NCBI GenBank assembly: GCA_029289265.1
Contig: JARFTX010000013.1
Location: 1 to 64,000 of the forward strand
DNA length: 64,000 nt
Source of the DNA: Gammaproteobacteria bacterium
Lineage (GTDB): Bacteria > Pseudomonadota > Gammaproteobacteria > Burkholderiales > Rhodocyclaceae
Reading direction: 5' to 3'
Part shown: positions 20,625-52,548 of the stretch, piece after piece
Numbering within the stretch: position 1 is the first letter of the stretch
How the letters are laid out: the number at the start of each line of letters is the position of its first letter
Made by a program: the position numbers and the translations under genes
Notes under the pieces: model-generated
Told to the model about the DNA's origin: nothing
Databases searched by the model: none
The model's input: the letters and a program-made list of their open reading frames with translations, nothing else

Positions 20625-22460
20625 ATGAAGATTTCCGAACGATTCATCAAGGTAGGATCACCTTTGCTGGGCGCGCTGCTGCTGGCGCTACCCGGACTCG
20701 CACCGGCAAACGCCGACCTCCAGAAGAAGATGTCCGACCCGAAGAATTGGGCCGCCCAGGCAGGAGACTTCTTCAACCAGCGTTACAGCAAGCTCGAACA
20801 GATCAACGCCGGCAACGTCGGCAAGATGCAGGTCGCATGGACGTTCTCGACCGGCGTCCTGCGCGGCCACGAAGGGTCGCCGCTGGTGGTCGATGGCATG
20901 ATGTTCGTGCATACGCCGTTCCCCAACAAGGTGTTCGCGCTCGATCTCGACACGCAGAAGATCGTCTGGCGCTACGAGCCGCGTCAGGATCCCTCGGTCA
21001 TCGCGCAGATGTGCTGCGACACCGTCTATCGCGGCCTCGCCTATGCCGAAGGCAAGATCTTCCTGCAGCAGGCCGACAGCACCCTGGTCGCCCTCAATGC
21101 GAAGGACGGCAACGTGCTGTGGAGCGTCGTGAACGGTGATCCCAAGCTCGGCGCGGTCAACACCAACGCCCCGCACGTGTTCGGCGACAAGGTCATCACC
21201 GGCATCTCCGGCGGCGAATGGGGCGTGCGCGGCTTCCTGGCGGCCTATGACATCAACACCGGCAAGCTGGCGTGGAAAGGCTACAGCACCGGCCCCGACA
21301 ACGAGATGCTGATCGACCCCGAGAAGACCGTGACCTGGACGGACGGCGAGCTCAAGCCGGTCGGCAAGGATTCGTCGCTCAAGACCTGGGAAGGCGACCA
21401 GTGGAAGATCGGCGGCGGCACGACCTGGGGCTGGTTCAGCTGGGATCCCGAGCTCAATCTGGTCTATTACGGGACGGGCAACCCGTCGACCTGGAACCCC
21501 TCGCAGCGTCCCGGCGACAACCGCTGGTCGATGACCATCTTCGCGCGCGACCTCAATACCGGGGTGGCGAAGTGGGTCTACCAGATGACGCCGCACGACG
21601 AGTGGGACTACGACGGCGTCAATGAAATGATCCTCGCCGACATCCCGGTCAAGGGCAAGCCGACCAAGGCGCTGGTGCATTTCGACCGCAACGGTTTTGC
21701 CTACACGCTGGATCGCGCCACCGGCGCCCTGCTGGTCGCCGAGAAGTACGATCCGACGGTGAACTGGGCGACCCATGTCGACATGAAGACCGGTCGTCCC
21801 GCGGTCGATCCGACGTTCTCCACGTCCAAGTTCACCAACCCGCAGCATGGGCCGGACGTGAACGTGAAGGGCATCTGCCCGGCGGCGCTCGGCACCAAGG
21901 ACCAGCAGCCGGCGTCGTTCGATCCGAAGACCGGCCTGTTCTACGTGCCGACCAACCACGTCTGCATGGACTACGAGCCGTTCGAGGTCGATTACGTGGC
22001 CGGCCAGCCGTACGTCGGCGCAACGCTGTCGATGTACCCGACGCCGAACAGCCATGGCGGCATGGGCAACTTCATCACCTGGGACGCGGGCGAAGGCAAG
22101 ATCGTGCAATCCAAGGCCGAGAAGTTCTCGGTGTGGAGCGGCTCGCTCAACACCGCCGGCGGCATCTCCTGCTACGGCACGCTGGAAGGCTACCTGAAGT
22201 GCGTCGATGCCAAGGACATCACGAAGGAGCTCTACAGCTTCAAGACCCCGTCCGGCATCATCGGCAACGTGTTCACGTATGAGCACAAGGGCAAGCAGTA
22301 CATCGGCGTGTACTCCGGCATCGGCGGCTGGGCCGGCATCGGCATGGCCGCGGGCCTCGAGGCGGACACCGACGGTCTCGGCGCAGTGGGCGGCTACCGT
22401 GAGCTGCAGGATTACACGCAGCTCGGCGGGTCGCTGACCATCTTCGCCTTGCCCGATTGA
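20625..22460 (+). CDS. xoxF: Lanthanide-dependent PQQ methanol dehydrogenase XoxF
   Basis: This 611-residue periplasmic quinoprotein has a signal peptide of about 30 residues and the eight-blade PQQ propeller. Visible active-site marks are the vicinal Cys130-Cys131 (QMCCDT), catalytic-type Glu198 (GGEWG), Asn286 (GTGNPS) and Asp328 in DEWDYDG. The extra Asp330, two residues after the catalytic Asp, is the mark of lanthanide enzymes; calcium MxaF has Ala there. It oxidises methanol to formaldehyde or formate, giving electrons to XoxG. GAGGAGA lies 6 bases upstream of the ATG. No mxaF or mxaI is seen, so this is the methanol dehydrogenase of the locus. Confidence 0.97.
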
Positions 22461-22675: not shown

Positions 22676-23095
22676 ATGAGGTATCTGGAGTTCGCTGTTG
22701 CCGCCGCGCTGTGCGTGGTCGGAGTTTCCCACGCCCAGGAGGCGCTCGCCGGCAAGAAGCAGAGCGACTCGGACAAGGCCCTTTATACGGTGGTCGACGG
22801 CTACAAGGTCGATGCCGACACGCTCGCCGGCTTTCGCGCCTGGCGCGCCGCTGCGTGCGACCGCTGCCACGGCGCCAACCAGGAAGGCATGGTCGGGCCA
22901 TCGCTGATCGAATCGCTGAAAGTCATTACCAAGGAGGAGTTCATCGCCGTGGTGCGCGACGGACGGCTCGATCGCGGCATGCAGAGCTTCGGCAACGATC
23001 CGCGGGTGATGGACAACATCGACCACCTGTACGCCTATCTCAAGGGCCGCTCCGATGGCGCGATCACGCGTGCTCGCGTGCAAGCCATGGACTGA
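22676..23095 (+). CDS. xoxG: Periplasmic cytochrome c XoxG (electron acceptor of XoxF)
   Basis: This 139-residue c-type cytochrome has a signal peptide (MRYLEFAVAAALCVVGVSHA) and one heme motif, C61-DRC64-H65. Met102 in RGMQSFG is the likely second iron ligand. It is short compared with classical cytochrome cL (about 170-200 residues). As the partner encoded right after xoxF it should accept single electrons from the reduced PQQ and pass them to a terminal oxidase chain. GGAGGATG lies just before the start. xoxJ follows after 12 bases. Confidence 0.92.
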   Translation: MRYLEFAVAAALCVVGVSHAQEALAGKKQSDSDKALYTVVDGYKVDADTLAGFRAWRAAACDRCHGANQEGMVGPSLIESLKVITKEEFIAVVRDGRLDRGMQSFGNDPRVMDNIDHLYAYLKGRSDGAITRARVQAMD

Positions 23096-23107: not shown

Positions 23108-24004
23108 ATGACCGAAACGAGCCCGAGCCGGGACGGACCCGGGGTCCGCCGCGGCACCGTCCGGCTTCTCGCAGCCGCGGCCATCGCGACACTGCTCGCA
23201 ACCGCCCCGTCGGCCTACGCCCAGAGCGCGAACGGCCGAGACACCCTGCGCGTGTGCCAGGATCCCAACAACATGCCCTTCTCCAACGACAAGGAGGAAG
23301 GCTTCGAGAATCGCATCGCCGAGCTGTTCGCCCAGCATCTCGGCGTGCCGGTCACCTACTTCAACTATCCGCAGCGCTTCGTCTTCATCCGCAACACCCT
23401 GCGCTACAAGCTTCCGGGCCAGGACTATCCCTGCGACATCATCATCGGCCTGCCCGTCGGCTTCGACCAGACCGCGGTCACCAAGCCGTACTACCGCTCG
23501 ACCTACGCCCTCGTCTTCCCCAGCGGCAAGGGGATGGACCACGTCAAGTCGACGGCGGACTTCCTCGCCCTCGGACGCGAGCGGCTCACCCAGCTCAAGA
23601 TCGGCCTCTACGACAAGTCGCCGGCGTCGCGCTGGATGGACCGCCACGATCTGGTCGACCAGGGCGTGCCCTACCAGACCATCAACATGGACATGGACCA
23701 CTATGTCGGCGACATCATCGACAAGGACCTGGTGTCCGGCAAGATCGACGTCGCGATCGTGTGGGGTCCGGTCGCCGGCTATTTCGCCCGGCAGGTGGAG
23801 CCGCCCCTGATCGTGGTCCCGATGAAATCCGAGCCGGGCGTCAGGTTCGACTTCGCCTTCGGCATGGGGCTGCGCCGCGGCGAGCCGGAATGGCAGAAGC
23901 AGATCGAGGACTTCATCGACTCGCACCAGGCGGAGATCGAGCAGATCCTCGGCGACTACCATGTTCCCCTGATCGACGAGGCCCTCGAACCGATCGCCCG
24001 CTGA
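23108..24004 (+). CDS. xoxJ: XoxJ/MoxJ-like periplasmic binding protein
   Basis: The 298-residue protein has a Tat/Sec-like leader (basic start, hydrophobic run, cleavage after AYAQ) and a solute-binding fold of the quinoprotein-associated MoxJ family. It starts with LRVCQDPNNMPFSN and has YPCDIIIGLPVGFDQ, VAIVWGPVAGYFA and a C-terminal helix. No transporter genes accompany it. Family members are thought to help activate or mature the methanol dehydrogenase instead of importing a solute. It is co-directional with xoxFG, the classic xoxFGJ order. Two cysteines may form a disulfide. Confidence 0.92.
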   Translation: MTETSPSRDGPGVRRGTVRLLAAAAIATLLATAPSAYAQSANGRDTLRVCQDPNNMPFSNDKEEGFENRIAELFAQHLGVPVTYFNYPQRFVFIRNTLRYKLPGQDYPCDIIIGLPVGFDQTAVTKPYYRSTYALVFPSGKGMDHVKSTADFLALGRERLTQLKIGLYDKSPASRWMDRHDLVDQGVPYQTINMDMDHYVGDIIDKDLVSGKIDVAIVWGPVAGYFARQVEPPLIVVPMKSEPGVRFDFAFGMGLRRGEPEWQKQIEDFIDSHQAEIEQILGDYHVPLIDEALEPIAR

Positions 24005-24103: not shown

Positions 24104-24472
24104 ATGAAACGCCGACATTCCGCCCTGATCGTCCTCGCGACCTGTGCCACCCTGACCGCGGCGCCGACTCAGGCCAACGACTTCCCTACCATCGAGCGGG
24201 TGAACTTCGTCTTCGAGTGCATGCGCGACCACCCCGGCCCGTACTACGAGATGTCCACCAAGTGCTCGTGCGCGCTCGATTCAGTCGCCTCCAAGGTAAG
24301 CTTCGAGGACTACCGCACCATGCACACGGCCGCGCTGGCGAACACCATAGGCGGGGAGCGCGGCGGCTACTACCGCGCCAAGATGTGGCGCGACCAGGCC
24401 CGGACTTACGCGAAGTTGCGCGACGACGCTAAGAAGGGCTGCTTCATCGACACCCCGGCGGCGGTGCGTTAA
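24104..24472 (+). CDS. Small secreted Cys-containing protein of the xox cluster
   Basis: This 122-residue protein has a clear signal peptide (MKRRHSALIVLATCATLTAA, cut near AQA-ND). Its mature part has four cysteines: FECMRDH, KCSCALDSV and KGCFID. I know no named family, although similar small proteins occur after xoxJ in other methylotrophs (recalled, not checked). It has no CxxCH heme motif and no metal motif I can name. GGAGAG lies upstream. Its position between xoxJ and the metallohydrolase suggests a periplasmic helper of the XoxF system. Confidence 0.75.
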   Translation: MKRRHSALIVLATCATLTAAPTQANDFPTIERVNFVFECMRDHPGPYYEMSTKCSCALDSVASKVSFEDYRTMHTAALANTIGGERGGYYRAKMWRDQARTYAKLRDDAKKGCFIDTPAAVR

Positions 24473-24520: not shown

Positions 24521-25540
24521 ATGGTCACTTTCTCGGCCTGCGCCCTGCCTTCCAGGTCGTTCGGGCCAGGATTCGTGGCGCTTGCCGCCGTGCTTGCCAT
24601 CACTGTGCCCCTGTCCGGAACAGCCGCTGTGGACGGCCCGGCTCCGCTGCCGGTCGAGGAAATCGCTACCGGCGCGACACCCCTGCCGGTCGAGGAGATC
24701 GCGCCGGGCGTCATGCTCCATGTGGGACGGCAGGAGGTCTGGTCCGCGGCCAATGGCGGCGACGTCGCCAATCTCGCCTTCGTGGTCGGCTCGGAGTGCG
24801 TCGCGGTCATCGACAGCGGCGGCAGCCCGGCGCTGGGCGCCCGCATGCTCGCCGCGGTGCGTGCCCGCACCCCCTTGCCGGTGTGTTACGTGATCCACAC
24901 CCACGTCCATCCCGACCACGTTCTCGGCGCGGCCGCCTTTGCGGCCCTCGAACCGCGCCCGCGCTTCGTCGCCCACGCCCGCTTCGCCGCGTCGCTCGCC
25001 GCGCGCGCCGGCCATTACCTCGCCGCGGCCGAACGCGAACTGGGCCACGCGCAGGAGGCGGCCGACATCGTCTTCCCCGACATCGAGGTCGCCGATACGC
25101 TCGAACTCGACCTCGGCGGCCGCGCACTCACGCTGCGCGCCTGGCCCACCGCGCACACCGACAACGACCTGACCGTGCATGAACGCGCCACCGGCGTGCT
25201 CTTTCTCGGTGACCTGCTGTTCGCCGGCCACCTGCCCGTACTCGACGGCCGGCTGCTCGGCTGGCTGGCCGTGATGGACGAGTTGGCAGAACTCGAGATC
25301 GCCCTCGCCGTTCCCGGCCACGGCCCGCCCTCGCGCGCCTGGCCGGCGGCACTCCAACTGCAACGCGACTACCTCGACGGGCTGCGCGACCAGGTGCGCG
25401 CCGCATTGCGCGCGGGCCGGACGCTGGCCGAAACGGTCAACGCCTTGGGCGAAACGGGCACCGACACCTGGCTGCTCGCCGATGAATTCCACCGTCGCAA
25501 CCTCACCGCCGCCTATGCCGAGCTGGAGTGGGAGGACTGA
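24521..25540 (+). CDS. Quinoprotein relay system zinc metallohydrolase (SoxH-like)
   Basis: The 339-residue secreted protein has a metallo-beta-lactamase fold with an intact metal site: HTHVHPDH (His128, His130, Asp132, His133), AHTDNDL, LFLGDLLF and VPGHGPP. It belongs to the SoxH-related group found beside PQQ dehydrogenases; the reaction is unknown. Residues 42-64 hold a tandem 12-residue duplication (PLPVEEIATGAT, PLPVEEIAPG), encoded by a 36-base repeat at 24647-24718. GGAGG lies upstream. It is followed closely by the SoxYZ-like carrier, which suggests that it acts on a group carried by that protein. Confidence 0.88.
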   Translation: MVTFSACALPSRSFGPGFVALAAVLAITVPLSGTAAVDGPAPLPVEEIATGATPLPVEEIAPGVMLHVGRQEVWSAANGGDVANLAFVVGSECVAVIDSGGSPALGARMLAAVRARTPLPVCYVIHTHVHPDHVLGAAAFAALEPRPRFVAHARFAASLAARAGHYLAAAERELGHAQEAADIVFPDIEVADTLELDLGGRALTLRAWPTAHTDNDLTVHERATGVLFLGDLLFAGHLPVLDGRLLGWLAVMDELAELEIALAVPGHGPPSRAWPAALQLQRDYLDGLRDQVRAALRAGRTLAETVNALGETGTDTWLLADEFHRRNLTAAYAELEWED

Positions 25541-25555
25541 CCCCCGGGGGGTACC

Positions 25556-26380
25556 ATGAACGCACCGTCGCTGCTGCTCGCATCCATCCTGGCCCTGGGG
25601 CTCGTCGCCGAGGCCTCGGCGCAGAAGTCAGACCCCGACCGGCCCGAGGCCAACGCCACCTGGCAGCAGGTGCGCACGAGCCTCTTCCAGGCGCAGGAGA
25701 TCCGGACCCCGGCCGACGCCGTGATCACGCTCGACGCCCCCGAACGCGCCCAGGACGCCGCAATCGTGCCGGTCTCGATCCGCACCGGCCTGGAGCAGAC
25801 CCCCGAGCGCCACATCGAGAAGGTCTATCTGGTGATCGACAACAACCCCTCGCCGGTCGGCGCGGTATTCACCTTCACGCCGGCGAGCGGTCGCGCCGAC
25901 ATCGAGTTGCGCGTGCGGATCGAGACCTACACCCACGTGCGCGCGATCGCCCGGACGAGCGACGGCGAGCTCCACATGGCGACGCGCTTCGTCAAGGCCT
26001 CGGGCGGGTGCTCGGCGCCGCCGGGCAAGGACATGAGCGCGGCGCTTGCGAACCTCGGCAAGATGCGCCTGCGCGTCGAGGGCGACGTCGCGCCCGGCCG
26101 TCCCGCGCTTGCGCAGCTGATGGTAAGCCACCCCAACCACTCGGGCCTCGCGATGGACCAGCTGACACGCCACTACACGCCCGCCTATTTCGTGCGCCGC
26201 GTCGAGATCAGCTTTGCCGGCGAGCCGGTGATGAGCGCCGACATCGATTTCACGATCAGCGAGAACCCGAACTTCCGCTTCTGGTTCGTGCCGCGCGGCG
26301 ACGGTGAGCTCAAGGCCGAGGTCGTCGACACCCGCGATCTGCGCTTCGCGACGGCGGTCGCCGTCAATCCCTTGCGCTGA
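25556..26380 (+). CDS. Quinoprotein dehydrogenase-associated SoxYZ-like carrier
   Basis: The 274-residue secreted protein is a natural fusion of SoxY-like (about 30-160) and SoxZ-like (about 165-270) domains. The SoxY part ends in KASGGCSAPPG with a single cysteine, Cys152, like the swinging thiol of SoxY that carries sulfur intermediates. No sulfur-oxidation genes are present, so the cargo here is unknown. It starts 16 bases after the metallohydrolase stop, suggesting an enzyme-carrier pair. Its 3' end overlaps by 17 bases the end of the minus-strand DUF3280 gene. Confidence 0.88.
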   Translation: MNAPSLLLASILALGLVAEASAQKSDPDRPEANATWQQVRTSLFQAQEIRTPADAVITLDAPERAQDAAIVPVSIRTGLEQTPERHIEKVYLVIDNNPSPVGAVFTFTPASGRADIELRVRIETYTHVRAIARTSDGELHMATRFVKASGGCSAPPGKDMSAALANLGKMRLRVEGDVAPGRPALAQLMVSHPNHSGLAMDQLTRHYTPAYFVRRVEISFAGEPVMSADIDFTISENPNFRFWFVPRGDGELKAEVVDTRDLRFATAVAVNPLR

Positions 26381-26957
26381 CGCCGGCGGGAGACGCGCCG
26401 CCGTGCGATCCGATGCCGTAGCCGGGATTGCGGGCGCGCCGTTCGCCCATGTCGCGCACCAGAAAGCGCACGCCGCGGGCCCAGGTCTCGTCGGTATTGC
26501 CGCGGATGTCCACAGACTTGGTCAGCACAAGCCGGTCCTCGCGCGCGTCGCGGATCACGATGTTGATGTTGAGGATCAGGTTGCTGACCTTCTGCACCCA
26601 GCCCGCCGCGACCAGGTCCACGTCCAGCGCACGGCCCACCTCGGTCAGGCACGGGTCGCAGCGGTAAAGGTACTCGTGGCGGGCGCGCAACCGCTCGAGG
26701 ACGTCGCGCGCCGGCTCGAGCGCGACGACGCGGTAGAGCCCGGCTTCGGCGAGAGCCGTCTGGATCTGGGCGTGGATCATGCCGAGACGCCGCTGCTGGT
26801 CCGCCTCGCGGCTCGGGTCGGGCTCGTTCTCGAGCAGTTCGAAGCCCACGATCGCCAGCGTCGGCGGTTCGGCGCCGCCGGCCGCCTGCGCGGCAAAGGT
26901 CAGGCACGCACCCGCCAGGATGCAGACGGCGATTCGAAGGAGATGGGAGGCAGTCAT
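26364..26957 (-). CDS. DUF3280-type secreted protein
   Basis: This 197-residue protein has a signal peptide (cut near AQAAGG) and the conserved features of the DUF3280 group: LAIVGFELLENE near residue 34, a CDPCLTEVGRAL cysteine pair, WVQKVSNLILNINIVIRDA and DIRGNTDETWARGV. The fold resembles TolB-like domains. The function is unknown, and it recurs in quinoprotein gene clusters. It is the only minus-strand gene in this block; it converges on the SoxYZ gene and diverges from the degenerate metallohydrolase with about 20 bases between starts. Confidence 0.78.
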   Translation of the reverse strand: MTASHLLRIAVCILAGACLTFAAQAAGGAEPPTLAIVGFELLENEPDPSREADQQRRLGMIHAQIQTALAEAGLYRVVALEPARDVLERLRARHEYLYRCDPCLTEVGRALDVDLVAAGWVQKVSNLILNINIVIRDAREDRLVLTKSVDIRGNTDETWARGVRFLVRDMGERRARNPGYGIGSHGGASPAGVSARD

Positions 26958-26978
26958 CGGCGAGGGACTCCGTTGGGG

Positions 26979-27935
26979 GTGTGGTCGTTGTCGGGACGGC
27001 TTTTCGTATCGTTAGCAATATGCGTGCTCGCCTGCTTCGGCACGGTCGCCGCCACCGCGCAGCCGCTTCCGGCGGTCGAGCTTGCCCCCGGCGTGCATGT
27101 AGCCCTGGGTGCCCGCGACGAGGCGGCCGCCGACAACGGCGGCGCGGTCGGCAACATCGGCTTCATCGTCGGTGCAGACGGCACCATCGTCATCAACACC
27201 GGCAGCTCGCGCCAGCACGGCGTCCGCATCCTGGAGGCGGCCGAGGCCCTCGGCGGCAAGCCGGTGGTGCTCGCGATCATTACCCAGCCGCTGCAGGAGT
27301 TCGTAATGGGCGCCGCGGCCTTCGCCGAGCGCGGCATCCCCATCCTCGCTCACGAAGCGGCTGCCCAGCTCATCGTCGAGCGCTGCGAGCGCTGCCTCGC
27401 CAACCTCACCGCGCTGCTCGGCGAGGAAGCGATGCGCGGCACCCGCGTGGTGGCGCCGGACCGGACGGTATCGGGCTCGCTGACCCTCATCGCCGGCGGG
27501 CGGTCCCTGCACCTGATGCACTTCGGCTGGGGGCACACCCCGGGCGACCTCGCCGTGCTCGACCCCGCGAGCGGCGTACTCTTCGCCGGCGCCCTCATCT
27601 CCATCGGACGCATACCGGCGGTGCGCGATGCGCAGCCGACCGGCTGGCTCGATGCGCTCGCCGAACTCGAACGCCTGCCGGTGCAGACCCTTGTGCCCGG
27701 CTACGGCCCGCCGGGCGGTCTCGACGACATCGGCCCGGTGCGCGACTACCTGACCCAACTCGACGCCCGCGTCGGGGCGCTCGTCGACGACGGCGCCGGA
27801 CTGCAGGAGACACTCGCCGCCGCCGAGCTGCCGCAGTTCGCCCACTGGGCGCTCTATCCGGTGATGCACCCGCGCAACGTGCAGCACCGCTACCTGCGCC
27901 TCGAGACCGAGCTCTTCGACCGCGAGCCGCGCTGA
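26979..27935 (+). CDS. Degenerate metallo-beta-lactamase-fold protein (relay metallohydrolase 1-like)
   Basis: This secreted protein of about 318 residues aligns along its length with the neighbouring zinc metallohydrolase but has lost its metal ligands. HTHVHPDH is replaced by ITQPLQEF (near residues 101-108), the bridging Asp in LFLGDLLF is Ala in LFAGALIS, and the His in VPGHGPP is Tyr in VPGYGPP. Only GHTPGDL keeps its His. It is therefore probably a non-catalytic binding protein. The start is uncertain: TTG 26973, GTG 26979 or TTG 26985; AGGGA lies at 26963. It belongs to the PQQ-relay block. Confidence 0.8.
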   Translation: MWSLSGRLFVSLAICVLACFGTVAATAQPLPAVELAPGVHVALGARDEAAADNGGAVGNIGFIVGADGTIVINTGSSRQHGVRILEAAEALGGKPVVLAIITQPLQEFVMGAAAFAERGIPILAHEAAAQLIVERCERCLANLTALLGEEAMRGTRVVAPDRTVSGSLTLIAGGRSLHLMHFGWGHTPGDLAVLDPASGVLFAGALISIGRIPAVRDAQPTGWLDALAELERLPVQTLVPGYGPPGGLDDIGPVRDYLTQLDARVGALVDDGAGLQETLAAAELPQFAHWALYPVMHPRNVQHRYLRLETELFDREPR

Positions 27936-27957: not shown

Positions 27958-28767
27958 TCAGCCCGGCTTGCCGGTGCGCTTGAGCATGCCGCGCTGCGGG
28001 TCGTAGCCCCAGGCCGCGAGCAGGAAGAAGGCCACCAGGCAGCCGACGACGACGCCGAGCGCCTCGAACGAGATCTGACCATAGAGCGCGAAGCGGATCG
28101 CCTCGACCGCATAGGTGAACGGATTCACCTGGGCGAGGAAATGCACCACGGCCGCACCCGACTCCTCGAGCTTCCACAGCGGATAGAGCGCCGGCGAAAT
28201 AAAGAACATCGGGAAGATCACGAAGTTCATCGTGCCAGCGAAGTTCTCGAGCTGGCGGATGTGCACCGACATCAGCAGGCCGAGCGCGCCCAGCATCATC
28301 CCCGCCAGGACCAGCGCCGGCAGCGCGTAGAGCCAACCGCTCCAGGGGAGCTCGACGCCGAAGAGCGCCGCGATCCCGAGAAAGGCATAGGCCTGCAGCA
28401 CCGACAGCAGGGTGCCGGCGAGCAGCTTGGCGAAGAGCAGGTACCAGCGCGGCAAGGGCGCCGTCAGCAGCAGGCGCATCACGCCCATCTCGCGGTCGTA
28501 GACCATCGCGAGCGAGGACTGCATGCCGTTGAAGAGCAGCACCATGCCGAGCAGCCCCGGCACGATGTAGACCTGGTACGGGATGTAAGTCTCGTAGGGC
28601 GGGATGATCGATATCCCGAACACGTTCTGGAAGCCCGCGGCGAAGACCACCAGCCAGAGCATCGGCCGCACCAGCGCCGAGGCGAAGCGCCCGCCCTGGC
28701 GGACGAATTTCGCGACCTCGCGGCTGGTGACGGCCTGCAGTGCGAGCAAGGCGTGGCTCAGGCGCAT
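27958..28767 (-). CDS. ABC-2 type permease of the PQQ-associated (Lut-like) transporter
   Basis: This 269-residue membrane protein has about six hydrophobic segments, for example MLWLVVFAAGFQNVF, VYIVPGLLGMVLLF and FVIFPMFFISPALYPLW. It carries the ABC-2 signature around PLPRWYLLFAKLLAG. It belongs to the permease family found with PQQ alcohol dehydrogenases and, in Methylorubrum, in the lanthanide-uptake (lut) cluster. Its ATPase is encoded at 31366-32133 in the same operon, separated by the propeller and binding-protein genes. The start at 28767 follows GGGGGC. The direction of transport is not settled for this family. Confidence 0.88.
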   Translation of the reverse strand: MRLSHALLALQAVTSREVAKFVRQGGRFASALVRPMLWLVVFAAGFQNVFGISIIPPYETYIPYQVYIVPGLLGMVLLFNGMQSSLAMVYDREMGVMRLLLTAPLPRWYLLFAKLLAGTLLSVLQAYAFLGIAALFGVELPWSGWLYALPALVLAGMMLGALGLLMSVHIRQLENFAGTMNFVIFPMFFISPALYPLWKLEESGAAVVHFLAQVNPFTYAVEAIRFALYGQISFEALGVVVGCLVAFFLLAAWGYDPQRGMLKRTGKPG

Positions 28768-28891
28768 GAACGCCCCCTGCCCGCGATGCGAACTTCCGCA
28801 CCGTCCGACACCCTTCGTGGCTGGCGCCACGCCGATAAAGCTGCCGTCCCCGGCACCTCCACGCTCCGTCCGCCACCGCACCCGATCGGCC

Positions 28892-30094
28892 TCATCGCGT
28901 CGCTCCGTCGAAGCTGCAGCGGCTGTCGCGGCGATCGAAGCCGATGGTGTCGAGATTGTTGGTCTGGTGCAGGAAGCCCTGCAGCGGCGCGCGCTCGATC
29001 ACCGCGTTGTGGGTCGCGAGCAGCATGGGCTGGCGCAGCTGCTTGTCCCACGGCCGGAAACTCAGTCGGTTGCCCTTGAAGCCGTCGATGATGATCTCCT
29101 CGCCGGTGAGGTAGGCGAGGAGATCGTCGAAGCTGGCGTTCTCGGTGCGCAGCACCGCCTCGACCACCGCCTTCACGGCGATCCATGCCGCCCAGTCGAC
29201 GTCGGCCATCTTGCGCTTGGCCTGGCGCTCCACGCGGTTGCTGAGCTGCGGCGCGCCGTGGCGGTCCCACGACCAATGCCAGGCCGCGGCAACCAAACCC
29301 TCGGCGCCGACCACGGGTCGCGGCCGCACGCTGCGGTAGGGCACGCCGCGCGCGAACTCGCCGTCGCTGTCGGCGACGAACACGACGTCGTAATCCGGTC
29401 CGGCCGTGAGCAGCGCGACGTTGCCCTGGTCGCGCAGGCGCGGGTCGTTGCTCAGCACGAACTCGCGCTTGGCGACGACGCGCAGGCCGAAGCGACGCGC
29501 GGAGTTCTCGAAGGCGGCGGCGATCAACTTGTCGTCGGCGAGCGGGCCTTCGAGCAGCAGCACCGTGCGCCATTTCTTCGACACCACGTACTGCACCAGC
29601 GCATCGGCCTGCATCGCGTGGTTGGGCAGGGTGTGAAGCAGATGGGGCTGGCAGGCCTCCTGGCGCAGCGCGTCGTCCGGTGCCGAGACGTTGAACAGCA
29701 CCAGCGGCTTGCCGCGCGTCGCGCGGGCGACCTCGGCGACCATCCCGCCCGGCGCATCGAGCAGGAAGTAGCGCACGCCTTCGGCGTGCAGCGCCTCGAT
29801 GCGCCCCACCATCGCCGCCGCGTCGGCGGCCGTCGCGCGCTCGAGCGCGAAGGCGACGCCCAACGCCTGGCCGACGAAGCGCGCCTCGCGCAGCGCCACC
29901 TCGGCACCGGCGAACGGCGCGCCGAAGGGCTGGGCGAGGTTGCGGTACTGAAGCCGGCGCTCGTCGTAGCGCGCGTCCTTGTCGAGCCCGACGTAAGCGA
30001 AGCGGATCGTCTCGGCGCCGGCCGGCAGCGCGAACGCCAGCACGGCGACGAGCAGCAGCCTGCACACGAGGCGCAGGGACAGGCGGGTCGGCAT
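28892..30094 (-). CDS. Substrate-binding protein of the PQQ-associated ABC system (LutA-like)
   Basis: The 400-residue secreted protein has a leader ending LPAGA-ETIRFAYVG and a two-lobe, branched-chain-type periplasmic binding fold. It matches the family annotated as substrate-binding protein of PQQ alcohol dehydrogenase ABC systems, which includes LutA of the lanthanide-uptake cluster. Features include LFNVSAPDDALRQEAC, HLLHTLPNHAMQADAL and a C-terminal HQTNNLDTIGFDRRDS. It starts 30 bases after the propeller gene stop; the start at 30094 is supported by GGAG, and 30109 is the longest option. Ligand unknown; lanthanide or lanthanophore binding is an inference. Confidence 0.87.
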   Translation of the reverse strand: MPTRLSLRLVCRLLLVAVLAFALPAGAETIRFAYVGLDKDARYDERRLQYRNLAQPFGAPFAGAEVALREARFVGQALGVAFALERATAADAAAMVGRIEALHAEGVRYFLLDAPGGMVAEVARATRGKPLVLFNVSAPDDALRQEACQPHLLHTLPNHAMQADALVQYVVSKKWRTVLLLEGPLADDKLIAAAFENSARRFGLRVVAKREFVLSNDPRLRDQGNVALLTAGPDYDVVFVADSDGEFARGVPYRSVRPRPVVGAEGLVAAAWHWSWDRHGAPQLSNRVERQAKRKMADVDWAAWIAVKAVVEAVLRTENASFDDLLAYLTGEEIIIDGFKGNRLSFRPWDKQLRQPMLLATHNAVIERAPLQGFLHQTNNLDTIGFDRRDSRCSFDGATR

Positions 30095-30123
30095 TGCACT
30101 CATCTCCATCGGCCGCGGGGCGA

Positions 30124-31110
30124 TCAGTCGTCGATGACGACCGTGTGCGGAACGCGCCCGACCGGGACCGAGCGCAGCACGCGGTTCGTGCGCGTATCGA
30201 CGATGGAGACGTCGTCCGACAGGCCGTTGGCGATGAAGAGCAGGCTCTCGTCGCCGTTAAGCGCCGCGCCCCAGGCGCGGGACCCGACCAGCACGAAGTC
30301 GCGCACGGCGCGGCTCGCGACGTCCACCACCGCGAAGTGGTTGGCGCGGCCCAGCGTCACGTAGGCGGTCTTGCCGTCGCGCGTCATCGTGATGCCCACC
30401 GGCGTCACCTCCTCGGCGCGAAAGCCGCGCGGCTCGAAGGCGACGGTGCCCTTCACCTCGTGCGTGCGGCCGTCGAGGATGGTGACGGTGCCGCCCAGCT
30501 CGTTGGTGACCCAAACCTCGGCCCCGTCCGGCGTCGCGGCGAAGCGGCGCGGCCGGTTGCCGACGACGACGTTGGCGACGATCTCGTGCGTCGCGGTGTC
30601 GATCACGTGCACCATGTTCGCGACTTCCGAGGTCACATACAGGAACCTGCCGTCGGGGCTGACGAGGATGCCCTCGGGCTCCTCGCCGACCTCGATGGTC
30701 GTGACGAGCTCGCCGCTCGCGACGTCGATCACGCTCACCATCGCGTCGTCCTCGTTCGATACGTAGACCCGCGTGCCGTCCTTGCTGAAGTCGAACATCT
30801 CGGGGTCGTCGCCGACCTCGAAGCTGCGCACCACCTCGAGCTTGGCAAGATCGATCACGTCGATGCGCTCGTCGTTGCTGGCGATCACGAAGAGCTCGCT
30901 GCGGTCGGGCGTGAGCTTCATGTCGCGCGGACGCTCGCCGGTGGGGATCACCTTGATTACCGCGTGGGTCTTGCCGTCGAGCACCGTCACGGCGTTGTCG
31001 TTCTCGCTGCTGACGAAGATGTGGCCGGTTCCCCGCGCCAGCGTGGCGCCGCTGCCCAAGGCGAGCGCGAGGGCGATGGCAAGGCCTGTGCAGAGTCGTT
31101 TCAGGGTCAT
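30124..31110 (-). CDS. PQQ-associated YVTN-type beta-propeller protein
   Basis: The 328-residue secreted protein has a signal peptide (MTLKRLCTGLAIALALALG) and seven YVTN-like repeats of about 42 residues, with steps such as VFVSSENDNAVTVLD, LFVIASNDERIDVID, VYVSNEDDAMVSVID and LYVTSEVANMVHVID. This family is tied to PQQ-dependent alcohol use and to lut clusters. It is not an enzyme by any motif I see. GGAGA lies upstream. The repeat element at 31261-31360 separates it from the ATPase gene of the same operon. Confidence 0.9.
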   Translation of the reverse strand: MTLKRLCTGLAIALALALGSGATLARGTGHIFVSSENDNAVTVLDGKTHAVIKVIPTGERPRDMKLTPDRSELFVIASNDERIDVIDLAKLEVVRSFEVGDDPEMFDFSKDGTRVYVSNEDDAMVSVIDVASGELVTTIEVGEEPEGILVSPDGRFLYVTSEVANMVHVIDTATHEIVANVVVGNRPRRFAATPDGAEVWVTNELGGTVTILDGRTHEVKGTVAFEPRGFRAEEVTPVGITMTRDGKTAYVTLGRANHFAVVDVASRAVRDFVLVGSRAWGAALNGDESLLFIANGLSDDVSIVDTRTNRVLRSVPVGRVPHTVVIDD

Positions 31111-31365: not shown

Positions 31366-32133
31366 CTAATCACTTCCGCGAACGACCGCCTCCGCGCCGC
31401 CCGTCATCGCCAGGAACGCTTCGGCGAGCGTCCCCGTGCCGGCCTGCGCCACCAGCGCCGCGGGCGTGCCCTCGGCGAGGATCTTGCCCTGGTGCAGCAC
31501 GATGACGCGGTCGGCCGCCTCGGCCTCGTCGACCAGGTGCGTCGCCCACAGCACGCCGACGCCGTCCTCGCGCAAGGCCAGCACCTGGTCGAGCAACTGC
31601 CGCCGCGAGGCCGGGTCGAGCCCGACGGTGGCCTCGTCCATCAGCAGCACGCGGGGCCGGTGCAGCAGCGCCCGGGCGAGCTCGACCTTGCGGCGGTTGC
31701 CGCCGGAGAGTTCGCGCACCTTGTCGCCGGCGCGCTCGGCGAGCCCCAGCTGCGCCAGCGCCTCGGCGATGCGCGCCGTCGCGTCGCGTCCGGCCATGCC
31801 GTGCAGCCGGGCGTGGAAGCGCAGGTTCGCCTCGACGCTGAGGTCCAGATCCAGTGTGGCCTGCTGGAACACCACGCCGATGCCGGCGAGCGCCGTGATC
31901 GCGTCGCGGCGGATGTCGCAGCCGCAGACCTCGACGCGGCCCCGGTCGGCGTTGAACAGCCCGGTCAGGAGCTGGAACAGCGTGCTCTTGCCCGCACCGT
32001 TGGGGCCGAGCAGCGCGACGAACTCGCCGCGCCCGACCGCGAGGCTCACGCCCTTGAGCGCCTTGCGGGGCCCATAGGACTTCTCCGCGGCCTCGACCCG
32101 CAGGACGGCAGCCACGGTGGTTTCAGCGCCCAT
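31366..32133 (-). CDS. ABC ATPase of the PQQ-associated (Lut-like) transporter
   Basis: The 255-residue ATPase has Walker A GPNGAGKST, signature LSGGNRRKVELARALL, Walker B VLLMDEATVGLD and the switch His in LWATHLVDEAE. It is of the CcmA/daunorubicin-type branch that pairs with ABC-2 permeases, so its partner should be the permease at 27958-28767. It is the LutE-like member of the set. The start at MGAETT overlaps the end of the preceding importer-type ATPase by 11 bases, so the two transporter sets are coupled. Confidence 0.9.
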   Translation of the reverse strand: MGAETTVAAVLRVEAAEKSYGPRKALKGVSLAVGRGEFVALLGPNGAGKSTLFQLLTGLFNADRGRVEVCGCDIRRDAITALAGIGVVFQQATLDLDLSVEANLRFHARLHGMAGRDATARIAEALAQLGLAERAGDKVRELSGGNRRKVELARALLHRPRVLLMDEATVGLDPASRRQLLDQVLALREDGVGVLWATHLVDEAEAADRVIVLHQGKILAEGTPAALVAQAGTGTLAEAFLAMTGGAEAVVRGSD

Positions 32134-32917
32134 CGCCGCCTCCTTCGATGTCCTCGGCGCTCGCCGCCAGCCCGGCAAGAATCTCCGGGTAGCGGGTCAT
32201 CAGCTCGGCGTACAGCGTCGACACGGCCTCGTCGTCGTGCGCGCGCGGTCGCGGCAGGCCGACCGGCAGGTCGAGCACGACCCGCCCGGGCGAGCCGGAC
32301 AGAAAGCACACACGGTCGCCGAGGGCGAGCGCCTCGCGCAAGTCGTGGGTGACGAACAAGACGGTCGCGCCGCGGCGCTGCCACAGCTCGACCAGCATCG
32401 TGCGCAGGCGGTTGGCGGTCGGTGCATCGAGCGACACAAAGGGCTCGTCCATCAGCAGCAAGCCCGGGTCGATCGAGAACGCGCGGGCGAGCGCCACGCG
32501 CCGCTGCATGCCGCCCGAGAGCCGCCCGGGATACGCGTCGAGCACGTCGCCCAGCTCCATCGCCTCGAGCAGCGCGCGCGCGTGCGGCCGCGCCGCTTCG
32601 GGGTCGGGCGCGACCAGCAGCACGTTGTCGAGCACGGTGAGCCACGGCATCAGCCGCGGCTCCTGAAACATGAAGCCGACCCCAGCCGAAGGCGGCTTGC
32701 CGTCGAGCAGCACGCGGCCGTCGACGTCGGCATCGAGGCCGCCGACGACGTTGAGCAGCGTCGTCTTGCCGCAGCCCGATGGCCCCACCACGCAGACGAA
32801 CTCGCCGCCCCCGATGCTCAGGCGCAAGTCGGCGAGCGCGAGGTGCGGCCGGCCGCCGCGGTCCGGGTAGCGCTTGCGCGCGATGTCGATCTCGAGCATT
32901 TCGGTCGGGCCCGTCAT
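32123..32917 (-). CDS. ABC ATPase, nitrate/sulfonate/taurine importer type
   Basis: The 264-residue ATPase has Walker A GPSGCGKTT, signature LSGGMQRRVALARA, Walker B LLLMDEPFVSLD and the switch FVTHDLREA. The family energises importers for nitrate, taurine, aliphatic sulfonates or thiamin precursors. Its permease (32922-33755) and binding protein (33752-34753) are directly upstream. The substrate cannot be told from sequence. Five bases separate it from the permease stop. Confidence 0.9.
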   Translation of the reverse strand: MTGPTEMLEIDIARKRYPDRGGRPHLALADLRLSIGGGEFVCVVGPSGCGKTTLLNVVGGLDADVDGRVLLDGKPPSAGVGFMFQEPRLMPWLTVLDNVLLVAPDPEAARPHARALLEAMELGDVLDAYPGRLSGGMQRRVALARAFSIDPGLLLMDEPFVSLDAPTANRLRTMLVELWQRRGATVLFVTHDLREALALGDRVCFLSGSPGRVVLDLPVGLPRPRAHDDEAVSTLYAELMTRYPEILAGLAASAEDIEGGGDGR

Positions 32918-32921
32918 CCGT

Positions 32922-33755
32922 TCAGCCCCGCCATCCGGTCAGCCGGCGCTCGAGCGGACGCATCAGCAGCGCCTCGACCAGCAGCACGACGGCGGCAAAC
33001 ACCAGGGTGTACGCGAGGATGCCGGAGATGTCGAAGAACTGGAAGAAGACGTTGAGCTGGAAGCCGACGCCGTTGCTGCGGCCGAGCAATTCCACCACCA
33101 GCACGATCTTCCAGATCAGCGACAGGCCCGAGCGCGCAGCCGCCATCAGATAGGGCACGAGCTGCGGCAGATACACGCGCGTGAAGGTGCGCCAGCGCGA
33201 CAGCCGGTAGGCGCGCGCGACCTGCATGAGCCTGGGGTCGATCGCGCGCGCGCCCTCGCGCACCATCACGACCACAGTCGGGATCTTGTTGATCGCCACC
33301 GCGACGATCGCCGCGACATCGGTCAGCCCGAACCACACGTAGCACAGGATGATGGTGACGAGCGCCGGGATGTTGAGCCCGAGCACGAGCCACGCATCGA
33401 GAAAGAGGTCGACCCTGCGCCAGCGCCCCATGGCGATGCCGATGGCCGTGCCGATCGCCATCGCGAGCAGGAAACTGACCACGACGCGCCCCAGTGTGAT
33501 CGTCAGATGCTGCGGCAGCACGAGCGAGGCGGTCTCCTCCGCCACGCGGACGAACACCGCTGCCGGCGAGGGCAGCAGCGAGCTGTCGAGGATTGCCGCG
33601 AGGATCTGCCACAGCAGGACGAAGGCGAGGAGCGAGGCGAGACGCAGGCTCACATCGGCCCCGGGCACCCAGGGTCGCGTCGCCTTCCCGCCCTTGCGCA
33701 GACCCGGCAGCGACAACGCGGCAACCGGCTCGGAGCGGTTCTGCGGCCTCTTCAC
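32922..33755 (-). CDS. ABC importer permease, nitrate/sulfonate/taurine type
   Basis: The 277-residue membrane protein of the BPD-type permease family has five to six hydrophobic segments and the ATPase-contact loop near ARAYRLSRWRTFTRVYLP. The GTG start at 33755 overlaps the stop of the binding-protein gene (GTGA). The N-terminal 40 residues are polar before the first membrane segment LRLASLLAFVLLWQIL. It is the middle gene of a three-gene importer placed upstream of the PQQ/Lut-like genes. Confidence 0.88.
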   Translation of the reverse strand: MKRPQNRSEPVAALSLPGLRKGGKATRPWVPGADVSLRLASLLAFVLLWQILAAILDSSLLPSPAAVFVRVAEETASLVLPQHLTITLGRVVVSFLLAMAIGTAIGIAMGRWRRVDLFLDAWLVLGLNIPALVTIILCYVWFGLTDVAAIVAVAINKIPTVVVMVREGARAIDPRLMQVARAYRLSRWRTFTRVYLPQLVPYLMAAARSGLSLIWKIVLVVELLGRSNGVGFQLNVFFQFFDISGILAYTLVFAAVVLLVEALLMRPLERRLTGWRG

Positions 33756-34753
33756 CGATATGCACCCGTAGTCCAGAAGGTGCCCGGCGCGAGCGCGTCG
33801 GACCGGCCGACCAGTGCGGGGCCGCCCTCGGCCGCGAGAATCGCGTACACCTGACGCGCCACCGCCTCGGCGCTCGCCGTATCGTGGGAGGGACCCGGGA
33901 TCCCGGCGCGGAATCCATCGCGCAAGGCCTCGAAGGTCGCCTCGTCCTCGACCCGCATCGACGGTCGCAGCGCCTCCCAGACCGCGTCGGATTCGAGCAT
34001 GCGCTGCTTGGCGGCGGCGGAAGCGCGAAGGAAGCCGTCGATCGCGGCGCGATTCGAACCCGCCCAGCCCTCGCGGAAGACCCAGCCGATCATGGGCATG
34101 CTGCCGGTCACGCCGAGTTCCTCCAGCATCTCGTCGAGCGTCAGCAGCGGCTCCATCCCGGCCGCGCGCAGGCGCGCGTTGAAGTGCCAGAAATTGAGCA
34201 CCGCCGGCAGCTCGCCGCGCAGCATCAGCTGGTTGAGCAACGGCGGGGCGGCGAAATCGGTGCGGACGAACTGCGCGGCATCCTCGCCGGCCATGCGCCG
34301 CGAGTAGGCGCGGAGCAGCAGCCAGCTCTTGTCGAGCGCGCCGCCGGCGATGCCCAGGCGCTTGCCGCGCAGGTCGGCCCACTTCGTGGCGCCCGCGTCG
34401 GGTCGCACCATCACGCCACCGACCGCCAGCGAATAAGGCGCAAACACGAAGTCGCGCCCTTCGCTGCGCTGGCGCGACACCCAGATCCAGTCGTTGACGA
34501 TGACATCCACCGCGCCGCCGAGGAGCGCCACGTTGGCCGCGTCGTTGAGCGCCATCGGCACGACGACGAGCTTGACGCCTTCGCGCTCGGCGAGCCCCTC
34601 GCGCTGCATGACTTCGAGCTCCCAGCTGACGGTGCCGTATTGCAGCACCCCCACGCGCACCGTCGTCGTCTCCGCGGCAGACGCCGACGGCGCAAGGCTG
34701 GCCCAAAGCACGAGCCATCCGAGCAGCCGGAAGGCCTTATCGAACACCCTCAT
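33752..34753 (-). CDS. ABC importer substrate-binding protein (NMT1/SsuA-like)
   Basis: The 333-residue secreted protein has signal peptide MRVFDKAFRLLGWLVLWASL cut after SASA. The SsuA/NMT1-like fold shows VRVGVLQYGTVSWELEVMQ at the start, VDVIVNDWIWVSRQRSEG and a hinge near KRLGIAGGALDKSWLL. The related importers take up sulfonates, nitrate or organic C/N sources. The gene leads a seven-gene minus-strand operon (down to 27958) and has a sigma54-like promoter about 80 bases upstream, so the whole operon may be part of the methanol regulon. Confidence 0.87.
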   Translation of the reverse strand: MRVFDKAFRLLGWLVLWASLAPSASAAETTTVRVGVLQYGTVSWELEVMQREGLAEREGVKLVVVPMALNDAANVALLGGAVDVIVNDWIWVSRQRSEGRDFVFAPYSLAVGGVMVRPDAGATKWADLRGKRLGIAGGALDKSWLLLRAYSRRMAGEDAAQFVRTDFAAPPLLNQLMLRGELPAVLNFWHFNARLRAAGMEPLLTLDEMLEELGVTGSMPMIGWVFREGWAGSNRAAIDGFLRASAAAKQRMLESDAVWEALRPSMRVEDEATFEALRDGFRAGIPGPSHDTASAEAVARQVYAILAAEGGPALVGRSDALAPGTFWTTGAYR

Positions 34754-38284: not shown

Positions 38285-39475
38285 TCAGCGCCCCCGCTCC
38301 GCAATCAGCCGCTTCGACTCGGCCGGGCCGCGGAAGACCAGCGGCGCGATCTGGCTCGGGCGCAATTCGGCGCTCTGCGCCCGCTCGACCGCGGCCGTCA
38401 CCACGCCGTGCGCCGGCGACTTGTCGCACACCGGGTCGGCCACGGCGGCGTCGCCCGCCAGCATGAACGCCTGGCAGCGGCAGCCGCCGAGGTCCTTCTC
38501 CTTCTCGGGGCAGCTGCGGCACGGCTCCTTCATCCAGCCGGTGCCGCGGAAGCGGTTGAAGCCTTCGGAGTCATACCAGATGCGCGCGACGGCCATGTCG
38601 CGGACGTTGGGAAAGGCGAGCCCGGGCAGCATCCTCGCGGTATGGCACGGCAGCGCGGTGCCGTCGGGCGTGACGGTCAGGAAGACGTTGCCCCAGCCGT
38701 TCATGCACTTCTTGGGCCGCGTCTCGTAGTAGTCGGGAACGACGAAGAAGATGCGGATGCGCTCGCCGAAGCGTGCCCGATACTCGTTGGTGACGCGCTC
38801 GGCGAGCTCGATCTGTTCGCGCGAGGGCAGCAGGTGGTCACGGTTCACGAGCGCCCACGAGTAGTACTGGCTGTTGGCGAGCTCGAGGTACTCGGCGCCG
38901 AGCTCCAGCGCGAGTTCGATGATCTGGTCGATGTAGTCGATGTTGAGCCGATGGATCACGCAGTTCATCACCATCGGCCAGCCGTGCGCCTTGATCGTGT
39001 GCGCGACCCGGCGCTTGAGCTCGAAAGTGCGGGTGTGCGACAGGAAGTCGTTGAGCTCGCGCGTCGAGTCCTGGAACGAGAGCTGGATGTGGTCGAGCCC
39101 CGCCTCGCGCAGCGCCCGCGCGCGGGCCTCGTCGAGGCCCACGCCCGAGGTCAGCAGGTTGGTGTAGAAGCCCAGCCGGTGCGCCTCGGCGACCAGCACC
39201 TCGAGGTCATCGCGCAGCATCGGCTCGCCGCCCGAGAAGCCACACTGCACGCTGCCGGCGGCGCGCGCCTCGCGCAGCACCCGCAGCCAGTCGTCGGTCG
39301 AAAGCTCGTTCTCTGTCGCCGCGAAGTCGACCGGGTTGTAGCAAAACACGCAGTGCAGCGGGCAGCGGTAGGTCAGCTCGAGCAGCAGCCACAGCGGCGG
39401 GCCGATGGCGCGATCGGCGGCCGACGACGGTTCGGACGCCGGAGCGGTGAGGAGGCCGGGGTCGGTGGCGTTCAT
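38285..39475 (-). CDS. pqqE: PQQ synthase PqqE (radical SAM)
   Basis: The 396-residue radical SAM/SPASM enzyme has the cluster motif C38-PLH-C42-VF-C45 and C-terminal cysteines (CMNGW, CHTA, CRSCPEKEKDLGGCRCQ) for the auxiliary clusters. It makes the carbon-carbon bond between Glu and Tyr of the PqqA peptide, the first chemical step of PQQ synthesis. It starts just after the pqqD stop. The residues before position 25 are a less conserved extension. It is last in the pqqABCDE operon. Confidence 0.97.
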   Translation of the reverse strand: MNATDPGLLTAPASEPSSAADRAIGPPLWLLLELTYRCPLHCVFCYNPVDFAATENELSTDDWLRVLREARAAGSVQCGFSGGEPMLRDDLEVLVAEAHRLGFYTNLLTSGVGLDEARARALREAGLDHIQLSFQDSTRELNDFLSHTRTFELKRRVAHTIKAHGWPMVMNCVIHRLNIDYIDQIIELALELGAEYLELANSQYYSWALVNRDHLLPSREQIELAERVTNEYRARFGERIRIFFVVPDYYETRPKKCMNGWGNVFLTVTPDGTALPCHTARMLPGLAFPNVRDMAVARIWYDSEGFNRFRGTGWMKEPCRSCPEKEKDLGGCRCQAFMLAGDAAVADPVCDKSPAHGVVTAAVERAQSAELRPSQIAPLVFRGPAESKRLIAERGR

Positions 39476-39476
39476 A

Positions 39477-39758
39477 TCAGACCTCGATCCAGTGCTGGTG
39501 CAGCGCGACGTCGAGGAAGCCGATCACGTCGTCCTCCAGCCCCTGCGTCGAAAAGGCCGCCTCGAGCTCGGCGACGAGCTCGGCGACGCTGCGGCGGCCG
39601 TCGCAGCGCTTGAGGATTTCGCCGGCGCTGCCGTTGAGCTTCACCATCCCCTCCGGATAGAGCAGCACCCACGACTGCTGCGCCTCCTCCCACTGCAGCC
39701 GAAAGCGCGGCGACACGCGCGGGCGCGTGCTCGACGTGACCTCGACCGCGGCGCTCAT
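39477..39758 (-). CDS. pqqD: PqqA-binding chaperone PqqD
   Basis: The 93-residue winged-helix peptide-recognition protein has the family core [35 protein letters not shown] and a C-terminal helix. It binds PqqA and presents it to PqqE. Its ATG overlaps the pqqC stop (ATGA). The length is typical. Confidence 0.96.
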
Positions 39759-40540: not shown

Positions 40541-40577
40541 GCAGCGCTCCCGTGTCCGGCACGCCCGCTCGCGCGGT

Positions 40578-41492: not shown

Positions 41493-41548
41493 GCGACCGT
41501 CGACCGAGCTGGCGGGGCCGTCGCGCGCGACGGCACCGCCGCCCAACC

Positions 41549-41623
41549 TCACCGCGTTGCGATGTACATCGTGATTTCAAAGCCGAAGCGATAGTCGCAG
41601 GCCTTGGGCGTTTCCCATTTCAT
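41549..41623 (-). CDS. pqqA: PQQ precursor peptide PqqA
   Basis: The 24-residue peptide MKWETPKACDYRFGFEITMY plus four residues contains the conserved Glu16 and Tyr20 (E-x-x-x-Y) that become PQQ. GGAGAGAG lies 8 bases upstream. It heads pqqABCDE. The upstream region (41624-41760) contains no sigma54 match; a Fur-like word is noted separately. Confidence 0.95.
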   Translation of the reverse strand: MKWETPKACDYRFGFEITMYIATR

Positions 41624-52534: not shown

Positions 52535-52548
52535 GAACAGCGCCCCCG

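Follow-up and report, generated by a model that had tools for sequence, protein, structure and literature searches.

We analysed a stretch of 64,000 nucleotides (positions 1 to 64,000 of contig JARFTX010000013.1, assembly GCA_029289265.1, from a Rhodocyclaceae bacterium), referred to here as the window, in which four genes at 24521-27935 stand near the gene of a XoxF-type alcohol dehydrogenase dependent on pyrroloquinoline quinone (PQQ). They encode a SoxH-type zinc hydrolase, a fused SoxYZ-like carrier with a single cysteine, a DUF3280 protein, and a relative of the hydrolase that has lost its metal ligands and gained a CXXC motif (the CXXC paralogue). We propose that in this block a single-thiol carrier is served by a hydrolase and by dithiol partners, and that the set most likely clears sulfur or disulfide adducts in the vicinity of the PQQ dehydrogenase, a reading to which we give a probability of roughly 0.4. 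A narrower proposal, possible though with the odds against it, is that a metallo-beta-lactamase hydrolase of a thiol carrier was converted, on a single occasion, into a protein that exchanges thiols with carriers of that kind, and took the place in its lineage of an unrelated rhodanese-like partner with a CxxxCW loop. The original prediction, made from the letters of the window, had described the four proteins correctly, as judged by profile matches, the reading of the metal ligands and the count of cysteines. It had also called their chemistry undescribed, which went too far, since the families are already named by NCBIfam and discussed in a review of 2026 (PMC12997753, cited here, like the other papers, from the accessible part of its text). 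The family is known and named, and for its function the review offers hypotheses.

The carrier is a member of TIGR04557. Its sole cysteine, Cys152, is encoded at 26009-26011 within the segment VKASGGCSAP, and this residue was invariant in all 23 carriers of set A1, which was gathered by profile and without a cysteine pattern; such conservation goes beyond chance. The AlphaFold model of the carrier consists of two domains with a mean predicted local distance difference test (pLDDT) score of 89.9, and the linker residues 151-160 are less certain (mean 69). In Foldseek searches the halves of the carrier superposed well on the SoxY and SoxZ chains of Paracoccus; the match at rank 1 was a transglutaminase with a poor superposition (template modelling score 0.27). 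According to the model, Cys152 would sit in the tethered linker between the Y and Z domains, unlike the cysteine on the free C-terminal tail of SoxY, at a place of low local confidence. The single cysteine of the original prediction was found, and its description as a swinging one was not borne out. The neighbouring hydrolase has the full ligand set HHDHHDH, with the metal motif HTHVHPDH at 24896-24919, and scores above the TIGR04559 cut-off, in line with the claim of an intact SoxH-like zinc enzyme. Signal peptides had been assigned to all four proteins. A simple hydropathy scan found a hydrophobic N-terminal stretch in each of them, and in the carrier no positive charge precedes it.

The CXXC paralogue is a metallo-beta-lactamase relative that reads QLEFHAY where the intact enzyme has HHDHHDH, and it falls below the cut-offs of both hydrolase families. 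Its cysteines, Cys148 and Cys151, are encoded at 27384-27386 and 27393-27395. Of the 132 hydrolase-like proteins read at carrier loci, 84 retain the complete set of seven ligands, 44 have the CXXC motif, and four (L035-L038; L, G and C numbers are our handles for loci, genomes and contigs) are degenerate without it; these four, from ethanol-type carrier loci of the window's order, share the uniformly altered site NHDYHGH. The CXXC motif was present in 44/44 members of the ligand-less clade, and either cysteine in 0/84 intact hydrolases. Each of the 44 proteins is down at least three of the seven ligands, in 24 different loss patterns, and further positions (W235, Y269, N312 and more) are constant in all of them, whereas the ligand positions vary. 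A single origin is enough to account for the group on the tree (Shimodaira-Hasegawa-like approximate likelihood ratio test support 83), which like the other trees here is a quick one built without bootstrap. Since the loci were picked through the carrier and not through the CXXC gene, this pattern is no product of selecting the loci. Steady cysteines beside drifting ligand positions suggest, as far as sequences can tell, a new function under selection. A decaying copy was rejected as an explanation because CXXC and the other residues are constant in 44/44 proteins. The earlier name of pseudo-hydrolase is apt for the missing ligands; it overlooked the conserved cysteine pair, and the protein does not look dead. 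No prior account of the CXXC exchange, or of the alternation with the CxxxCW protein described below, was found in the literature searched, which left most subscription papers outside it, and the CXXC paralogue looks like a new part of an otherwise named system.

To place the carrier, 398 genomes of the window's phylum were searched with the TIGR04557 profile. Matches over the cut-off occurred in 65 genomes, 44 of them with an uninterrupted frame; the remaining matches were adjacent soxY and soxZ genes read together, or split frames. A panel of 80 genomes was then chosen by us, comprising these 44 carrier-positive genomes and 36 taken from the genomes that gave no match. In 44/44 carrier-positive and 6/36 carrier-negative genomes a PQQ alcohol dehydrogenase scored above the cut-off, which upholds the earlier claim that the enzyme and its single-thiol carrier are tied to PQQ dehydrogenases. 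The searches for soxB and for formate dehydrogenase, and that with the CXXC profile, covered 50 of the 80 panel genomes, namely the 44 and the six carrier-negative ones with a PQQ dehydrogenase.

The rhodanese-like family TIGR03865 was over its cut-off in 38/44 carrier-positive genomes and in 0/36 carrier-negative ones, including 0/6 of those with a PQQ dehydrogenase. Its loop reads [YF]CxxxCW in all 16 open reading frames examined, which are without the CRxGxR loop of classical rhodaneses. No TIGR03865 match was found in the window's genome (G000, 98.55% complete), and the six carrier-positive genomes lacking this family are all six of the window's order. Five of those six (G000, G246, G328, G019 and G231) have a CXXC protein of the beta-lactamase fold, and two of these proteins, in G000 and G246, belong to the XoxF-type CXXC clade (441 and 414 bits with the clade profile; next match 246). 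For the 38 rhodanese-positive genomes, all listed matches with an E value of 1e-15 or better were read, and CXXC occurred in none of them.

Dithiol proteins also accompany other carriers. The second copies of the carrier fall into a single clade (13 rows, support 100), and a CXXC thioredoxin-like gene adjoins them at 13/13 loci. Neighbours were also counted at 80 named loci (L043-L122, the best 80 of 578). These were found by patterns, one of which contained the carrier's GGC, so cysteine counts on them are biased; their flanks are unequal in length (at least 18 kb in 43/80), and gene absences are to be read as lower bounds. The thioredoxin-like gene is present at 12 of them, exactly the 12 with the second carrier. 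An intact hydrolase was not found in the flanks of 8/13 second-carrier loci, where a CXXC paralogue is present, and occurs at the other five (in one case a fragment, where the contig ends); the enzyme and the carrier are thus no fixed pair. Both the second carrier and the thioredoxin-like gene are absent from the window. Another carrier clade, 60-65% identical to the carrier of the window, has soxC as its next gene at five of the 80 loci (L055, L060, L061, L065 and L066), followed in 4/5 by a cytochrome c gene. No hydrolase match was found at these loci, and soxAX and soxB were unrecognised nearby, where no model search was made.

In the mechanism that we propose, the block would serve a lanthanide-type PQQ alcohol dehydrogenase as its thiol-carrier module. 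The SoxYZ-derived carrier would present Cys152, and in the periplasm this residue would take on a small covalent adduct, most likely a sulfur-based one (mixed disulfide, persulfide, sulfite or thiosulfate). Hydrolysable adducts would be stripped by the zinc hydrolase. Those that call for thiol exchange would be taken off by a dithiol partner, which would return the carrier to its free thiol form in the way that SoxS acts on SoxYZ in sulfur oxidisers; the presence of a dithiol protein in many of the lineages examined agrees with this. In the window's lineage this partner may be the CXXC paralogue, which would have kept the beta-lactamase fold and perhaps a docking face for the carrier and exchanged the zinc site for a dithiol; the CxxxCW rhodanese-like protein would do the same job in the panel genomes outside the window's order. 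Overall, the module would protect PQQ and the dehydrogenase from sulfur nucleophiles or incorrect disulfides. A sulfur adduct is considered most likely because the parts resemble sulfur-handling families and one carrier clade lies directly before soxC, and also because sulfur-PQQ adducts have been proposed and thiosulfate-active relatives of XoxF reported (PMC12997753, PMC6548844).

Several observations weigh against this reading, which is built on sequences and their comparison. Since the alternation between the rhodanese-like and the CXXC protein coincides with a single taxonomic boundary, it counts as one contrast (the rhodanese-like protein in 0/6 genomes of the window's order and 38/38 others). 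Within that order, the CXXC proteins of G328, G019 and G231 are of a distant kind with ligands partly kept and lie about 8, 25 and 11 kb from the carrier, and in G360 neither protein was found. At the 80 named loci a CXXC paralogue was matched in 42 and the rhodanese-like protein in none, leaving 38, Methylococcales among them, with neither in the flanks. The panel counts, uncorrected for kinship, are inflated by relatedness, and many of the negative genomes are small. As for sulfur, the association with soxC has a single origin, in one carrier clade on the tree; 23/44 carrier-positive genomes have no soxB; and genes of DUF6691, a sulfur-transport family, show no association with the carrier. 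One-carbon (C1) genes are commoner neighbours of the carrier than sulfur genes, and formate dehydrogenase, present at 14/80 carrier loci, fits C1 chemistry better. In Pseudomonas putida, transposon data obtained without lanthanides gave minimal phenotypes (PMC12997753).

The sulfur genes themselves are distributed as follows. The original prediction had stated that sulfur-oxidation genes were lacking; on the window's contig there was indeed no SoxB match and no SoxC match over the cut-off (the search there did not extend to SoxAX). Another contig of this genome, C112, however, carries soxB (806.4 bits), a soxXA fusion and a separate soxY, which counts in favour of the thiol relay. The fusion, at L032:8059-9336, lies between soxY and soxB and is over the cut-off of both models. 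No SoxC was over the cut-off in the whole genome, and the arrangement of Sox thiosulfate oxidation, with SoxB and SoxCD clustered with the carrier, was not found in it. Across the genomes searched, soxB was over its cut-off in 21/44 carrier-positive and 0/6 carrier-negative ones. In Hyphomicrobium pmpAB stands beside a SoxYZ fusion and SoxH (PMC11582611), which led us to consider a sulfur importer as a partner; the idea was rejected, as DUF6691 occurred in 27/44 and 15/36 genomes and never adjoined a carrier.

The main rival is a formaldehyde route, a periplasmic counterpart of glutathione-dependent formaldehyde oxidation in which the carrier thiol would trap formaldehyde as an S-hydroxymethyl adduct, a dehydrogenase would turn this into S-formyl, and the zinc hydrolase would release formate. 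Besides the formate dehydrogenase genes at the 14 loci already mentioned, the window has one (TIGR01591, 689.5 bits) directly upstream of xoxF, and this gene order recurs in G271 and G143, where about 4 kb separate formate dehydrogenase from a carrier. At such loci eleven carriers have flanks in which XoxF and MoxJ are both missing, and this label requires three changes on the tree. The glutathione-formaldehyde enzyme Gfa, which was scanned for, occurred in 5/80 loci, and what we take to be a class III alcohol dehydrogenase-like gene in 9/80, which we count for this route; that name, like LysR and S-formylglutathione hydrolase in our neighbourhood tables, is presumptive. However, methylotrophy genes cluster anyway, and formate dehydrogenase alpha, over its cut-off in 39/44 carrier-positive genomes and 5/6 carrier-negative ones with a PQQ dehydrogenase, was not so in five carrier-positive genomes, G250 and G229 missing it by a wide margin. 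The route also leaves the dithiol partners without a role, and it is at odds with the second-carrier loci in whose flanks the intact hydrolase was not found. We regard it as rather unlikely. Because C1 genes are the commoner neighbours, which counts against a sulfur adduct, the thiol relay is held at the probability given at the outset and the formyl-thiol route is kept beside it.

Maturation, by which the module would make or repair a disulfide, be it the vicinal one in the dehydrogenase or one in its cytochrome or in the small protein P122, has already been proposed in print (PMC12997753). It would account for the panel carriers occurring only with PQQ dehydrogenases, and for the several cysteine-pair proteins in the clusters, but a one-cysteine carrier and a hydrolase are unexpected as parts of a disulfide catalyst. 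Moreover, the vicinal CC pair was present in 7/7 dehydrogenases read from carrier-negative genomes, and the lanthanide-type Asp in 5/7 (motifs were counted in these seven and in 31 from carrier-positive genomes, with L169, L174 and L170 left out; 40 regions). The carrier module is therefore not indispensable for either feature. A requirement of the carrier for either was rejected, cofactor maturation, suggested in the original prediction, is weakened as an indispensable role, and maturation as a whole seems improbable to us. About as doubtful is the reading in which the CXXC paralogue only docks, or uses its cysteines for a metal or a structural disulfide, and so holds the carrier rather than reducing it. 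The DUF3280 protein likewise has a CXXC of no known redox role, and by eye the motif of the paralogue is outside the WCxxC context of thioredoxins. The alternation with CxxxCW and the strict pairing of the thioredoxin-like gene with the second carrier nevertheless point to thiol exchange. We consider it highly improbable that the carrier set and the neighbouring ATP-binding cassette (ABC) transporter load or transport PQQ or a lanthanide. The PedC-type ABC cluster does follow directly, but an ABC substrate-binding gene occurs in 9/80 loci, a single cysteine is a poor lanthanide site, and lanthanide-type dehydrogenases exist in carrier-negative genomes.

The features of the cluster are collected in the table. 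P122 lies just outside the block of the original prediction and recurs at such loci, with relatives both in L043-L122 and in L146-L161. This protein of 122 residues matched no Pfam or NCBIfam family at E 0.001, and its C39, C54, C56 and C113 are invariant in 30/30 aligned relatives. Its model is all-helical (pLDDT 83), and a search for structural relatives gave none in the PDB (Foldseek, E <= 0.001). It is present in 30/44 carrier-positive and 2/36 carrier-negative panel genomes. The latter two (G249 and G294) have XoxF-type dehydrogenases, that of G294 directly downstream of P122, and P122 was not found in G360 and G191, both with a XoxF-type hydrolase over the cut-off. P122 seems to track XoxF rather than the carrier. 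No account of it was found in the literature, the family having no name to search by. The DUF3280 protein has its CXXC at C100 and C103, the motif is present in 12/12 relatives read, and the family occurs in 10/80 named loci. Two other secreted proteins recur near carriers. One, of about 250 residues (e.g. L104:4585-5352), is conserved in 33/80 named loci, where its gene often separates the MoxJ-type gene from P122; a representative had no Pfam or NCBIfam match, and none was found in the window. The other, of 202 residues, lies on the minus strand of L123 at about 2526-3134 and recurs in L145, L146, L148 and L161.

Table. Genes of the cluster around the carrier (window positions)
Feature	Position	Strand	Evidence
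XoxF-type PQQ alcohol dehydrogenase	20625..22460	+	TIGR03075 708 bits (cut-off 480); vicinal CC pair, WDYD motif
c-type cytochrome beside the dehydrogenase	22676..23095	+	PF13442 41.4 bits, over cut-off; TIGR03874 60.5 bits, below cut-off
MoxJ/XoxJ-type periplasmic binding protein	23108..24004	+	TIGR03871 283.2 bits (cut-off 212)
P122, small periplasmic helical protein, four invariant Cys	24104..24472	+	no Pfam/NCBIfam family
SoxH-type zinc metallohydrolase, intact dinuclear site	24521..25540	+	TIGR04559 368.8 bits (cut-off 280)
Fused SoxYZ-like carrier, single Cys152	25556..26380	+	TIGR04557 274.6 bits (cut-off 140)
DUF3280 periplasmic protein with CXXC	26364..26957	-	PF11684 148.7 bits
Former hydrolase (CXXC paralogue), metal ligands lost, CXXC gained	26943..27935	+	TIGR04558 197.7 bits (cut-off 300); TIGR04559 195.9 bits (cut-off 280)
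PedC-type ABC permease of PQQ-dehydrogenase-associated transporter	27958..28881	-	TIGR03861 373.3 bits (cut-off 241)
Substrate-binding protein of PedC-type ABC cluster	28892..30109	-	TIGR03863 448.8 bits (cut-off 414)
Beta-propeller protein of PedC-type ABC cluster	30124..31110	-	TIGR03866 350.4 bits (cut-off 287)
ATPase of PedC-type ABC cluster	31366..32178	-	TIGR03864 336.5 bits (cut-off 302)

The PQQ-linked ABC cluster is adjoined by a nitrate/sulfonate/taurine-type ABC transporter set at 32123-34753, below the NCBIfam cut-offs, parts of which recur in L043, L046, L049, L146 and L149. The PQQ biosynthesis genes pqqE, pqqD (the end of a longer frame) and pqqB are on the minus strand at 38285-41552. 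A second quinoprotein system of the window consists of a quinohemoprotein amine dehydrogenase beta subunit (316.6 bits, over the cut-off) near an MsbA-like ABC exporter (below the cut-offs), at 51401-53194 and 49574-51307, respectively. RNA families and tRNAs gave no matches in the window. Elsewhere in the same genome, contig C114 carries a second carrier-hydrolase pair, adjoining another PQQ dehydrogenase.

Among the closest described counterparts is the quinoprotein relay system of NCBIfam (TIGR04557, TIGR04558 and TIGR04559). The carrier and the intact hydrolase of the window pass its cut-offs and the link to a PQQ dehydrogenase is common to both, whereas the CXXC paralogue fails the hydrolase models and P122 has no NCBIfam match. 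The thiol dehydrotransferase of Advenella kashmirensis, a relative of XoxF, reportedly works with Sox enzymes (Pyne 2018, as related in PMC6548844 and PMC9774590). Like the window, that system has a XoxF-type protein together with Sox-type proteins, there in thiol and sulfur chemistry, and relatives of XoxF are reported to convert thiosulfate (PMC6548844, PMC9774590). The ped cluster of P. putida resembles the window in having a fused SoxYZ and a SoxH-like hydrolase beside a lanthanide-type dehydrogenase (PMC12997753). The review treats the proteins PP_2677/PP_2678 together with the rhodanese-domain protein PP_2666; the window's genome gave no TIGR03865 match and has the CXXC paralogue. The review also notes that a thioredoxin-like gene adjoins the Methylobacterium homologues, and the roles that it suggests are disulfide formation, cofactor stabilisation or the shielding of PQQ from sulfur nucleophiles (PMC12997753). 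SoxS, a periplasmic dithiol protein, binds SoxY and reduces false mixed disulfides on SoxYZ (PMC10451225, PMC11582611). The likeness to it is one of analogy, namely a single-thiol carrier of the SoxY-SoxZ fold with a periplasmic dithiol partner. In the window, however, the carrier is fused, its cysteine is internal, the proposed partner would have a beta-lactamase rather than a thioredoxin fold, and the cluster is without soxB or soxC. The accessible text of a CRISPR interference screen in a methanotroph makes no mention of Sox, XoxF or quinoprotein (PMC13108547).

Among the organisms with carrier and hydrolase genes of this kind are methylotrophs, methanotrophs and Pseudomonas. Three findings, namely the exchange of ligands for CXXC, the alternation with CxxxCW and the pairing with a thioredoxin-like gene, point towards thiol exchange, and the chemistry thereby becomes testable. 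If the proposal is true, the CXXC paralogue would be a dithiol oxidoreductase, or a persulfide transferase, on a beta-lactamase fold that serves PQQ dehydrogenases, and such a protein would join the known ways of building a dithiol partner. The finding bears on how lanthanide-dependent methanol oxidation may cope with sulfur compounds.

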